In this document: positions 28,442-32,501 of the stretch, piece by piece
Numbering within the stretch: position 1 is the first letter of the stretch
Layout of the letters: each line of letters starts with the position of its first letter
NCBI GenBank assembly: GCA_026393865.1
Contig: JAPKZI010000067.1
Location: 1 to 36,116, forward strand
DNA from: Candidatus Aminicenantota bacterium
GTDB taxonomy: Bacteria > Acidobacteriota > Aminicenantia > Aminicenantales > UBA4085
Length of the DNA stretch: 36,116 nt
Direction of reading: 5' to 3'
Position numbers and translations under genes: made by a program
Notes under the pieces: model-generated
Databases searched by the model: none
The model's input: only the letters and a program-made list of their open reading frames with translations
Told to the model about the DNA's origin: nothing

Positions 28442-29032
28442 TCATGGACCTTCGGCCCGAGCCGACAATATCTCCACGATCTCTTCCAATTGGCCGGCCT
28501 TCAACGGCAGGGTATAGGACAGGAGGACGTTTCGGCCCTCATGGGCCAGAAGAACGACGATCCCGTCCTTCAAGAATCCCCGGAAAAAAGGCCCCGTATC
28601 CGCGACGGCCGGAAATCGAATGTCATGGGTTTTTCGAAAACCCTGCCATTTTTTCAGGACGATGCGCGAACGGAGTTCGGATCGTTCGTCTCCGCCGGCG
28701 GCTTCGTAAACGAGGACCCCCAGGATGCGATCCTCTTGGACGCGGGCCGGAAGGGCCCGGCAGAGGGCCAGGAGGGGCTCGAGGCAGGGTGCGCAGTAAA
28801 AGCTTTCGATGTCCATGAGAACCCAGCAACGGCACCGATCCATGCCGCGGGCCGTCTCCGGCCGGTCTTTGTTCGACGGAGCGGCGGATGACGGCCGGGA
28901 CAGCAACCATAACGATACGACGGCGAGGGCCGCGGCGCGAACAAAAATTAAAAGCCGGGCCCTGCGCCGCGATAATCGATCCGCCGCCCGGGAAGCGGAA
29001 ACGGCCCTCAGAACTTCTTCGTTCCTATTCAT
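28442..29032 (-). CDS. Membrane-anchored thioredoxin-fold protein with CAPC motif, extra cysteines
   Basis: This is a 196-residue protein. The first 26 residues are basic (RRRAR), then a hydrophobic segment 27-45 (LLIFVRAAALAVVSLWLLS) serves as an anchor or signal, placing the rest outside the cytoplasm. C80-A-P-C83 in the phrase MDIESFYCAPC is the redox-active site of a thioredoxin-like or AhpC/TSA-like fold. Close by are C67 and C69 (RCRCW) and C91, which is unusually many. IRFPAVADTGPFF is the likely cis-proline region, and LKAGQLEEIVEILS the last helix. The ATG overlaps the propeller gene's stop by eight bases (29025-29032), so it is the last cistron of the peptide operon. It is a good candidate for oxidising, isomerising or reducing disulfides in the twin CX6C peptides, but that is inference. 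Confidence 0.78.
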   Translation of the reverse strand: MNRNEEVLRAVSASRAADRLSRRRARLLIFVRAAALAVVSLWLLSRPSSAAPSNKDRPETARGMDRCRCWVLMDIESFYCAPCLEPLLALCRALPARVQEDRILGVLVYEAAGGDERSELRSRIVLKKWQGFRKTHDIRFPAVADTGPFFRGFLKDGIVVLLAHEGRNVLLSYTLPLKAGQLEEIVEILSARAEGP

Positions 29033-29984
29033 AAAGGATCCTGTATTTCTTCAGGGTGATGCCGTCATTGGCTCGGACGTACAAAGAATGGCCGCGGTCG
29101 AAGTAAAGACAGTGGCTCGTGTCCGGAAGGGTGAACGTCGTCAAGAGCTCCCCCTCCGTGTTCAAAACGAAGACCGTCCGGCTGGGGGCCTTGGCCAAGC
29201 GTCCCCCGAGGACGAGGACATGTCCCCGGCCGTCCAAAGCGATATCTTTAAAACACGTCTCCCCCGGCAGGGTGAAGGACGAGATTTTTTTCGTCTCGGC
29301 CTTTTTCCCGCCGAGCAGATTCCGCGACCAGAGGCGTTTTCCGTCCGGCGACCATTTCTCGATCCGGTCCTGGAAAAGGTAGGCCAGATAGAACCCCCCC
29401 TCCGCGTCCGGGACGAAGCTGATCGAATCCATGAGGACTCCCGCGTTTTTATCCACGTAAGCGATCTCGGACAGGACTTTTCCTTCGCCGTTCAAAACCA
29501 GGATCCTGCCGGGCTCTTGAAAGCTCATGACGGCCACGGCCACTTGATCGTCTCCGAGGGCCTTGAGATGAGCGATGAGCGCCGGGCAGGGAATTTTCTT
29601 TATGAAATTCAATTCCCGGTCGAAGACATAGACGCCGGCGACGTTCTGGTCGGTGGCGAAGAGGAAATTCGGCGAGGCGTCCAAGAGCCGCGGGACCATG
29701 AACTCGCCGGGTCCCTGTCCCCTGCGTCCCGTTTTTTTGACGAGCGCCCCGCGGGGATCGAACTTTTTAAGTGAGTAATCCATGGCGTCCAGGACATAGA
29801 TGAAGCCGTCGGGATCGGCGGCGACGCCGGTCCATTGGAACAAGGCTTCGTCATCCAAGGCTCCGATGGAAAGCACTTCTTTGAGGGTGATCCTGAAGAC
29901 GGCATCCTCCCCGAGGCCCGGCGGGGCCGCCCCGAGGGAGATCGCCAGGAGGGACAACCAAAGCATCCATCTCGGTCCGTTCAT
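29025..29984 (-). CDS. Secreted 6-bladed beta-propeller (NHL/TolB-like) protein
   Basis: This is a 319-residue protein. Residues 1-25 are a signal peptide (MNGPRWMLWLSLLAISLGAA then PPGLGE), and there is no lipobox cysteine. The body has NHL-type blades: FQWTGVAADPDGFIYVLDAMDYSLKKFDPRGALVKKTGRRGQGPGEF, then further repeats of a strand phrase plus DxxxxxIxxxxxx. RRGQGPGEF is the hallmark of exported '6-bladed beta-propeller' proteins, which are abundant in Bacteroidota and Acidobacteriota-like genomes. Such propellers bind peptides or other ligands and are not enzymes by default. The gene has GGGAGGACGG before its ATG and lies 57 bases after the second peptide gene, with no promoter between. 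It is therefore most likely a partner, receptor or chaperone of the peptides. Confidence 0.86.
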   Translation of the reverse strand: MNGPRWMLWLSLLAISLGAAPPGLGEDAVFRITLKEVLSIGALDDEALFQWTGVAADPDGFIYVLDAMDYSLKKFDPRGALVKKTGRRGQGPGEFMVPRLLDASPNFLFATDQNVAGVYVFDRELNFIKKIPCPALIAHLKALGDDQVAVAVMSFQEPGRILVLNGEGKVLSEIAYVDKNAGVLMDSISFVPDAEGGFYLAYLFQDRIEKWSPDGKRLWSRNLLGGKKAETKKISSFTLPGETCFKDIALDGRGHVLVLGGRLAKAPSRTVFVLNTEGELLTTFTLPDTSHCLYFDRGHSLYVRANDGITLKKYRILYE

Positions 29985-30041: not shown

Positions 30042-30269
30042 TCAGTTGCCGATGGACGGATCGATATATTTTTTACAGAAAGTGTAACCGATGATGCAGA
30101 TCACCGCCCCGAACGGGCCTGTAGCCTGGGTCATGATGTCATCGAAACAATCGGACAGGGCCCTTTCGCAGATACCGCCGGAACCATCGGCCTCGAACCC
30201 GGGAAGGCCGACCGCGAACGACAGACAGATCATCGAAAGCGCGACCAAGAGACGAATTCGTTTTGTCAT
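30042..30269 (-). CDS. Small exported twin CX6C peptide B (unknown family)
   Basis: This is a 75-residue precursor. I start at the ATG at 30269, four bases after the peptide A stop; the longer frame to 30308 would overlap peptide A. Residues 1-24 form a signal peptide (TKRIRLLVALSMICLSFAVG), cleaved near LPG-FEA. The mature part of about 50 residues carries C34-x6-C41, a 16-residue spacer and C58-x6-C65. The first pair lies in CERALSDC and the second in CIIGYTFC, followed by KKY. Peptide A has the same pattern and the shared CERA, IGYxFCxKY phrases, so the two are tandem duplicates. The two pairs suggest a helical hairpin held by two disulfides, in the manner of twin CX9C proteins. Function unknown. 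Confidence 0.75.
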   Translation of the reverse strand: MTKRIRLLVALSMICLSFAVGLPGFEADGSGGICERALSDCFDDIMTQATGPFGAVICIIGYTFCKKYIDPSIGN

Positions 30270-30273
30270 GGTC

Positions 30274-30540
30274 TTAGCCTTGGATGTATTTCTCGACATA
30301 CTTTTCACAGAAGCCGTAGCCGATCAGGCAGAAGCCGAGGAAGATAGGCAGCGTCGCCCCCTGGGAAAATATGCCGGAGATGATGGCGTCCGAGACGCAC
30401 TTGAGGGCCGCCCTTTCGCAATAGGAGCTGTCGTTCTCCTCTTCGGCCGATAAGGATGCCGCGAGCATGAAGCCGACCAACGAAACCGTGAGGACCAGAG
30501 CGATGGCCCGGCCCGACCAAGACCTTGTCAATGTGTTCAT
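30274..30540 (-). CDS. Small exported twin CX6C peptide A (unknown family)
   Basis: This is an 88-residue precursor with ATG at 30540, behind AAAGGAGA (spacing 7). Residues 1-32 form a signal peptide (basic SGR, hydrophobic AIALVLTVSLVGFMLAASL, cleavage about SLSA-EEE). The mature part of about 56 residues starts with an acidic stretch and has C41-x6-C48 in CERAALKC, 22 residues, and C71-x6-C78 in CLIGYGFC, then EKYVEKYIQG. The spacer is hydrophobic (IISGIFSQG, LPIFLGF), which would let it act on or in a membrane. It is the first cistron of the operon, immediately downstream of a sigma-54 promoter. No named family comes to mind. Candidates are a secreted signalling or toxin-like peptide, or a structural helical-hairpin protein. 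Confidence 0.77.
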   Translation of the reverse strand: MNTLTRSWSGRAIALVLTVSLVGFMLAASLSAEEENDSSYCERAALKCVSDAIISGIFSQGATLPIFLGFCLIGYGFCEKYVEKYIQG

Positions 30541-30566
30541 GGGAAATCTCCTTTCGATGCTGGATA

Positions 30567-30584
30567 AAGCAATCCCCGTGCCAA
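30567..30584 (-). promoter_or_regulatory. Sigma-54 (-24/-12) promoter of the peptide operon
   Basis: The minus strand reads TTGGCACGGGGATTGCTT from 30584 to 30567. This is an exact match to the sigma-54 consensus TGGCACG-N4-TTGCW, with GG and GC separated by the obligatory ten bases. The start would be at about 30557, leaving a leader of about 17 bases that contains the AAAGGAGA ribosome site. Sigma-54 promoters need an ATP-hydrolysing activator; none is in the window. Confidence 0.75.
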
Positions 30585-30657
30585 AAGGAGTTCCGCCCGC
30601 CGGGGCTTGAACAGGCTGATAAAAAGGAGGTTAGAAAAAAGGATATGTCCCGCGAAA

Positions 30658-30674
30658 GAGTTGATGATCAACTC
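30658..30674. promoter_or_regulatory. Palindrome upstream of the sigma-54 promoter, candidate activator site
   Basis: GAGTTGATGATCAACTC has two perfect seven-base arms around three central bases. Its centre lies about 109 bases upstream of the predicted start, where sigma-54 activators normally bind. The rest of the 30541-30726 gap has no gene I can support. The same palindrome could form a weak hairpin at the end of the hutU transcript, which is the main alternative. Confidence 0.5.
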
Positions 30675-30726
30675 GGGTTGACTTTAGCCCGGGCGGCCGT
30701 CATGATGCGTTGACGCTTCGGCCGGC

Positions 30727-32400
30727 TCAATTCTTTTTGACGATCGGGATCTTGATCTTCCTTTTTTTGGCGAAGGCGATCGCCTCGGGGTAGCCCGCGT
30801 CCGCATGGCGGACAACACCCAGGCCGGGATCGACCGTCAGGACGCGTTCCAGGCGACGGGCCGCCGAACTCGACCCGTCGGCCACGATCACCATGCCGGC
30901 GTGAATCGAAAGTCCGATGCCGACGCCGCCGCCATGGTGGACGGAAACCCAGGACGCGCCGTTGACCGCGTTCAAGAGGGCGTTGAGCACGGGCCAATCG
31001 GCGATGGCATCCGATCCGTCCTTCATCCCCTCGGTTTCCCGATGGGGTGAGGCCACCGAGCCCGCGTCGAGATGATCCCTTCCAATGACGATCGGGGCGC
31101 TGATCCGGCCGCTCTTAACGAGCCGATTGATGACGGCGCCGAAGCGGGCCCGGTCGCCGTAGCCGAGCCAACAGATCCTCGACGGCAGGCCTTGGAACCT
31201 GACCTGCTTCTGGGCCTTGCGAATCCAGCGTTCGAGGGCTTCGTCCTCGGGAAACGCCTTCAACACGGCCTCGTCGGTGATCAGGATGTCCCGAGGTTTG
31301 CCCGACAGGGCGACCCAGCGGAACGGCCCCTTCCCGAGGCAAAACAAGGGCCGAATATATTCCTGAACGAATCCGGGGATCTCGAAGGCGTCCGCGACGC
31401 CGGCTTTCTGGGCTTGGCCGCGGATGTTGTTGCCGTAGTCGAAAACCCTCGCCCCCCGCCTCTTGAGCTCGAGCATGGCCCGGACGTGAGCGGCCATGGA
31501 GGCGGTGGACCGCTTGATATAATCCCGGGGATCTTCACGGCGGAGTCGGAGCGCGCTCTCGTACGGGATGCCGCGCGGCACGTAGCCGTTGAGCTCGTCG
31601 TGGGCCGAGGTCTGGTCGGTCAGGATGTCGGGAGTGACTCCGCGCCGGACGAGCTCGGGGAGGACATCGGCCGCGTTGCCGAGGAGGGCGATCGACAGCG
31701 GCCGGCCCTTTTTTACGGCCGCGTCGGCGAGCCTGAGGGCTTCGTCGAGGCTCTCCGTCATCGTATCCACGTATTTGGTTTCGAGCCGGCGCCTGATCCT
31801 CCGCCGATCGACCTCGATCACGATGGCCACGCCGTCGTTCATGGTCACGGCCAGCGGCTGGGCGCCGCCCATGCCTCCGAGTCCGGCCGAAACGACGATC
31901 CGGCTTTTGAGGCTCCCTCCGAAATGTTTCTTGGCCGCGGCGGCCAGAGTCTCGTAGGTGCCCTGGAGAATGCCTTGCGTTCCGATATAGATCCAGCTTC
32001 CGGCGGTCATCTGCCCATACATGGTCAGCCCCAACGCTTCGAGCCGACGGAATTCATCCCAGGTCGCCCACTTCGGGACGATCATGGCGTTGGAGATCAG
32101 GACGCGGGGAGCCTCGGCATGGGTCTTGAAAACGGCGACGGGTTTTCCCGATTGAACGACCAGCGTTTCGTCGTTCTCGAGCTTTTTCAGGCTGTCGACG
32201 ATGGCCCAGAAACAGTCCCAGTTCCTGGCGGCTTTTCCCGTTCCGCCGTAGACGATAAGTTCCTGAGGGTTTTCCCCCACGTCGGGGTCGAGGTTGTTCA
32301 TCATCATCCGCAGAGCGCCTTCTTGGGACCATCCTTTGGTCCGCAATCCCGAGCCCCTCGGCGCTCTCAGCGGTTTATACGTCTTGGAGTGCGCGGCCAT
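30727..32400 (-). CDS. hutU: Urocanate hydratase
   Basis: This is a 557-residue enzyme. The start is the ATG at 32400 behind AAGGAGG; longer forms upstream lack a ribosome site and add no conserved sequence. It converts urocanate to imidazolonepropionate in histidine degradation, using tightly bound NAD. Recognisable are [19 protein letters not shown] near the N-terminus, [18 protein letters not shown] (NAD site) and [34 protein letters not shown] contains the conserved active-site cysteine region. The C-terminus has [21 protein letters not shown]. The length matches the family (about 555). No hutH, hutI, hutG or ftcD lies in the window, so the gene is an orphan here. It has its own promoter at 32439-32468. 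Confidence 0.97.
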
Positions 32401-32438
32401 GGCTGCCTCCTTGGAATCCTTGCAATTGTCTAGGGGAG

Positions 32439-32468
32439 AATATAGCATAGAGCCTCGAGGAATAGCAA
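32439..32468 (-). promoter_or_regulatory. Promoter of hutU
   Basis: The minus strand has TTGCTA (32463-32468), an 18-base spacer and an extended -10, TGCTATATT (TATATT at 32439-32444), about 40 bases before the hutU ATG. It lies back to back with the promoter at 32502-32530. Confidence 0.58.
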
Positions 32469-32501
32469 AAACAGGGCCGCGAAAAAAGAACAAAAAATCG
32501 G

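Follow-up and report, generated by a model that had tools for sequence, protein, structure and literature searches.

The NtrC-type enhancers of the E. coli glnAp2 promoter consist of two dyads approximately three helical turns apart, centred at about -110 to -150, and in Bacteroidetes short peptides of the NVEALA type adjoin genes for 6-bladed propellers. Aminicenantes are known mostly from metagenomes. Sigma-54 promoters carry the consensus tGGcacg / tTGCt, for example in Desulfovibrio vulgaris, and the sites for their activators are as a rule at least 100 bp upstream (PMC4641369). Sigma-54 has further been described as a controller of the bacterial exterior (Francke et al. 2011, PMC3162934), in a survey whose text makes no mention of Acidobacteria. 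The library that we searched yielded nothing on sigma-54 control in Aminicenantes and nothing relevant on peptide operons such as the one described here.

How is a pair of small exported peptides controlled in this group? We analysed a 36,116-nucleotide stretch of DNA (the window) from an Aminicenantales genome of 3.23 Mb in 240 contigs that is 86% complete (G000). From the sequence features described below, we consider it highly likely that one site in the window is a working sigma-54 (RpoN) promoter for a whole peptide operon, with an activator acting on both of two upstream dyads and transcription starting at approximately 30557.

The promoter and its upstream dyads

Read on the minus strand, positions 30583-30568 are TGGCACGGGGATTGCT, that is, TGGCACG-N4-TTGCT, which is identical to TGGCACR-N4-TTGCW and an exact match to TGGCAYR-N4-TTGCW, in which GG and GC are invariant; the gap from GG to GC is 10 bases (Table 1). 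A sequence-only reading had claimed that the site fits the sigma-54 consensus at every specified base, and it does. No other site in the window has GG and GC intact and at most two mismatches to TGGCAYR-N4-TTGCW. On the minus strand the site is followed by TTATCCAGCATCGAAAGGAGATTTCCC-ATG, and it lies 27 bp from the ATG of peptide 1. With the C of the GC element counted as -12, the predicted start falls at approximately 30557, and the leader from there to the ATG at 30540, which had likewise been read as 17 bases holding the ribosome site, is almost entirely that site.

Table 1. Features of the operon and its upstream region in the window
Feature	Position	Strand	Basis
-24 element TGGCACG	30577..30583	minus	consensus match, conservation
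-12 element TTGCT, GC at 30570-30569	30568..30572	minus	consensus match, conservation
Predicted transcription start	30557	minus	sequence arithmetic, 12 nt past C of GC element
Ribosome-binding site AAAGGAG, in 17-nt leader	30548..30554	minus	sequence; GAAAGGAG kept in relatives
Proximal putative enhancer dyad GTCAACCCGAGTTGAT, centre ~-117	30667..30682	minus	conservation
Distal putative enhancer dyad GTCAACGCATCATGAC, centre ~-149	30699..30714	minus	conservation
Peptide 1, 88 aa, signal sequence then C-x6-C ... C-x6-C	30274..30540	minus	sequence
Peptide 2, 75 aa, ATG at 30269, paralogue of peptide 1	30042..30269	minus	sequence
6-bladed beta-propeller protein	29025..29984	minus	PF17170
Exported protein, CAPC thioredoxin-like motif, last gene of operon, conserved	28442..29032	minus	sequence
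hutU (urocanate hydratase by similarity), outside regulated unit	30727..32493	minus	upstream neighbour, syntenic in many relatives

Farther upstream, and absent from the sequence-only reading, are two dyads of the GTCAAC-N4-GTTGAC type, which are 32 bp apart and lie 131 bp (distal) and 99 bp (proximal) from the sigma-54 site, a position that agrees with the upstream activator-site rule (PMC4641369). In four other genomes of the family the pair is found 129-133 and 97-100 bp upstream with a spacing of 32-33 bp, and tandem dyads at least approximately 100 bp upstream and in helical phase are thus kept in all five family genomes sampled. When about 200 bp of upstream sequence from these five genomes is aligned, the invariant blocks are CGTCAAC, GTCnAC..G, TTGGCA-GGG-TTGCTT, and CGAAAGGAG, nearly all of which correspond to the promoter, the ribosome site, and the two dyads. 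Outside the window's family, 19 operons were searched with the family's own motif for pairs 31-33 bp apart, using Markov-resampled controls. Tandem dyads reached nominal p <= 0.025 in eight of these operons, and nothing was found in the other 11; the combined p of approximately 2e-7 is optimistic, since the relatives share ancestry.

Could the sigma-54 promoter be real and the dyads be something other than activator sites, either a hairpin formed where the hutU transcript ends or the site of another regulator? We regard this as unlikely. No T-run follows the repeats, and both copies are retained 32-33 bp apart between -97 and -133 from the site, the usual enhancer position (PMC4641369), even though hairpins can arise from short perfect inverted repeats and the motif is missing in some relatives (roughly one in two operons beyond the window's family). 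The idea that the dyads are common to other sigma-54 promoters of G000 was dropped: at up to two mismatches its other exact sites show at most isolated single dyads and no GTCAAC pair, and none of the strict dyads elsewhere in this genome lies beside a sigma-54 site of comparable quality. Because no other exact site in G000 carries the tandem pair, our analysis suggests a dedicated activator for the operon.

At locus L135 an activator gene (PF00158, no receiver domain) is situated directly upstream of the operon, and its product is, by proximity only, a candidate for binding to the dyads. Its nearest counterpart in G000 by sequence is L044 (50% over 247 aa). Assignment of the activator by sequence was rejected, and L044 is a weak lead: the AAA+ domains are alike, and its last helix-turn-helix looks cut short. 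The entry that contains L135 (A05DMB-I-28) bears the title 'Clostridiales bacterium', yet its operon is of the Aminicenantes type and it is a match to G019 from the window's order; the title looks wrong. We also note that the minus-strand stretch 30600-30640, between the putative enhancer and the promoter, is AT-rich, as it is in relatives, and by eye IHF-like (TATCAA-N4-TTA in L094 and L097).

The peptide operon and its conservation across the order

Both peptides combine a signal sequence with four invariant cysteines, arranged C-x6-C ... C-x6-C, and carry GY/GW-x-FC near the end; the pair is present in single copy in G000. Given the signal sequences, the four invariant cysteines, and the CAPC protein encoded in the same operon, the peptides are probably exported and disulphide-bonded. 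The CAPC protein has no Pfam match. At another locus (L134, 2871-3326) a MauE-type membrane protein (PF07291) is encoded directly upstream of the peptide pair, and it suggests a link to oxidative folding or disulphide formation, into which it would fit. The peptide fold is predicted to be a helical hairpin with modest confidence (pLDDT 72, pTM 0.48), and it has no solved relative. The peptide members match no Pfam or NCBIfam model convincingly, and no family is matched by more than one of them, so they are not assigned to a known bacteriocin or NVEALA-type family.

The gene order peptide 1 - peptide 2 - propeller - CxxC redox protein recurs across the order, with hutU upstream in many cases. 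A profile search with peptide 2 finds the peptide family in 39 of the 94 Aminicenantales genomes, where it almost always occurs as a pair, and the relatives recovered by propeller alignment are almost all Candidatus Aminicenantes. For 36 copies of the operon, which cover several families of the order and are not independent (some share a genus, and three come from one genome), we recorded the best site in a 260-bp stretch whose downstream end lies 60 bp ahead of the codon for the first cysteine in peptide 1. There were zero, one, or two mismatches in 18, four, and six copies, respectively, compared with shuffled-sequence expectations of 0.02, 0.14, and 1.24 and with none in any of the three classes for the reversed consensus. 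Among the resulting 28 good sites, 22 end 24-30 bp ahead of the start codon. A recognisable sigma-54 site is absent from the remaining eight copies, which include L113, L114, and L116, closely related to one another, as well as two of family f7. Propeller paralogues without peptide genes served as the negative set, and only three have a site with at most one mismatch, L185 among them. At about 3650-5000 of L185, a gene for a divergent Cys peptide (CYGNWNRC ... CDIGLGKC), preceded by an exact sigma-54 site, is found between hutU and the propeller gene; this locus is possibly a distant version of the peptide operon.

It might be argued that the operon is transcribed mainly from another promoter, of the sigma-70 type or by read-through from hutU, and that the sigma-54 site provides a second start of minor or conditional use. 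We hold this to be quite improbable. Read-through could contribute, since the stretch separating hutU from the operon showed no minus-strand terminator; in addition, many relatives have the operon behind hutU in the same orientation, and eight of the 36 copies do without a recognisable site. Yet no sigma-70-like promoter precedes the operon on the minus strand in the region scanned, and leader length, ribosome site, and promoter are kept as one block.

Sigma-54 machinery and exact sites in the genome

G000 encodes a full-length RpoN (510-aa frame; PF00309, E=2e-15; PF04552, E=5.4e-59) with an intact RpoN box, ARRTVAKYR, along with sigma-54 activator ATPases (12 PF00158 matches above the cut-off), and rpoN is present in 91 of the 94 genomes of the order. 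The sequence-only reading had asked for rpoN and activator genes and would have been undone by a genome lacking rpoN; that objection is removed. Across the whole genome, TGGCAYR-N4-TTGCW occurs exactly 23 times, compared with 0 for the reversed pattern, and every one of the 23 sites is shortly upstream of an open reading frame. When one free mismatch is allowed, the scan returns 41 matches and its reversed control also 41. The one-mismatch scan was therefore dropped as evidence, and inference from the genome rests on the exact matches; the C-to-T variant TGGCAT makes up 18 of 36 one-mismatch matches.

The first genes behind the exact sites encode an N-terminal export signal, lipobox, or pilin leader in 21 of 23 cases, the remaining two being an ECF sigma factor and an ABC-2 membrane protein. 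A crude, approximate tally made by hand gives an export signal in about eight of 24 other genes in the window (Fisher p ~6e-5). One exact site precedes a type IV pilin gene, a classical sigma-54 target, and here an activator gene lies just upstream. The genes at the exact sites (L002-L037) also include three DUF6600 genes (two with FecR), solute-binding and TPR genes, and the ECF sigma factor already mentioned. Two of them, L022 and L031 (on C102 and C170), encode family-5 solute-binding proteins and have near-identical sigma-54 promoters and 5' gene ends, reflecting either a recent duplication or, at contig ends, a duplicate produced by the assembly. The sequence-only reading had suggested that sigma-54 sites might cluster at similar peptide operons. 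This is the case between genomes and is not the case within G000, where there is one peptide pair and the other sites stand before other, mostly exported, proteins.

That the promoter is a functionless consensus-like 16-mer yielded by a GC-rich genome has a very small probability in our estimation: one-mismatch matches are indeed no commoner than their control, but the exact counts, the position and spacing kept in 28 of 36 orthologous operons against none for the reversed consensus, and the footprint in five family genomes refute it to a high degree.

Proposed mechanism and comparison with known systems

We propose that sigma-54 RNA polymerase would bind 30568-30583 as a closed complex and that dimers of an enhancer-binding AAA+ activator would occupy the two dyads near -117 and -149, which, at 32 bp or about three turns, would present them on the same face of the helix. 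Upon a signal the activator would assemble, DNA looping would bring it to the polymerase, and ATP hydrolysis by the activator would open the promoter. The transcript would start near 30557, with the ribosome site in its short leader, and peptide 1, peptide 2, the propeller, and the redox protein would be controlled as one operon. The analysis itself shows the promoter with its conservation, RpoN, the activator genes, and the conserved dyads, whereas activator binding to the dyads, looping, and conditional expression are the parts of this scheme that we infer from sequence. Since sigma-54 is obligatorily activator-dependent, it is very probable that a specific signal switches the peptide operon on. 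This agrees with the sequence-only reading, whose observation is confirmed and whose main interpretation is better supported than that reader could know.

The promoter is ordinary in kind; what merits follow-up is the conserved putative enhancer, together with the conservation across the order and a peptide family that has no assignment. With its conservation and its readable putative enhancer, the sigma-54 switch offers a way into a peptide family that otherwise lacks a function, and once the activator of the dyads was identified, the signal, and from it the probable use of the peptides, would become apparent. The chances seem to us evenly balanced that Aminicenantales possess an undescribed enhancer-controlled secretion or signalling module, composed of tandem exported 4-Cys helical-hairpin peptides, their own propeller, and a CxxC redox protein, and kept silent by its sigma-54 dependence until a dedicated activator receives its signal.

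How does this locus compare with the systems described previously? With sigma-54 promoters of the Desulfovibrio vulgaris type it shares the -24 and -12 elements, their spacing, dyads at the enhancer position, and activator ATPases in the genome, whereas the host phylum and the regulated operon differ and the start here is predicted. It resembles the NtrC-type enhancers of glnAp2 in the two-dyad arrangement, but the motif is GTCAAC-N4-GTTGAC and not an NtrC site. Likewise, the grouping of short, exported, Cys-containing peptides with a PF17170 propeller and a thioredoxin-like protein resembles the NVEALA type; this likeness is a lead only, as the peptide members here are without a Pfam or NCBIfam match and so are not assigned. 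Finally, as in the survey of Francke et al. 2011 (PMC3162934), the targets are export-linked, given the export signals in 21 of 23 first genes, and the genes here are pilin, FecR/DUF6600, TPR, solute-binding, and peptide genes rather than genes of precursor synthesis. The 23 exact sites thus outline a sigma-54 regulon made up almost entirely of exported proteins, and such a regulon extends the view that sigma-54 controls the cell exterior to a phylum absent from the text of that survey.
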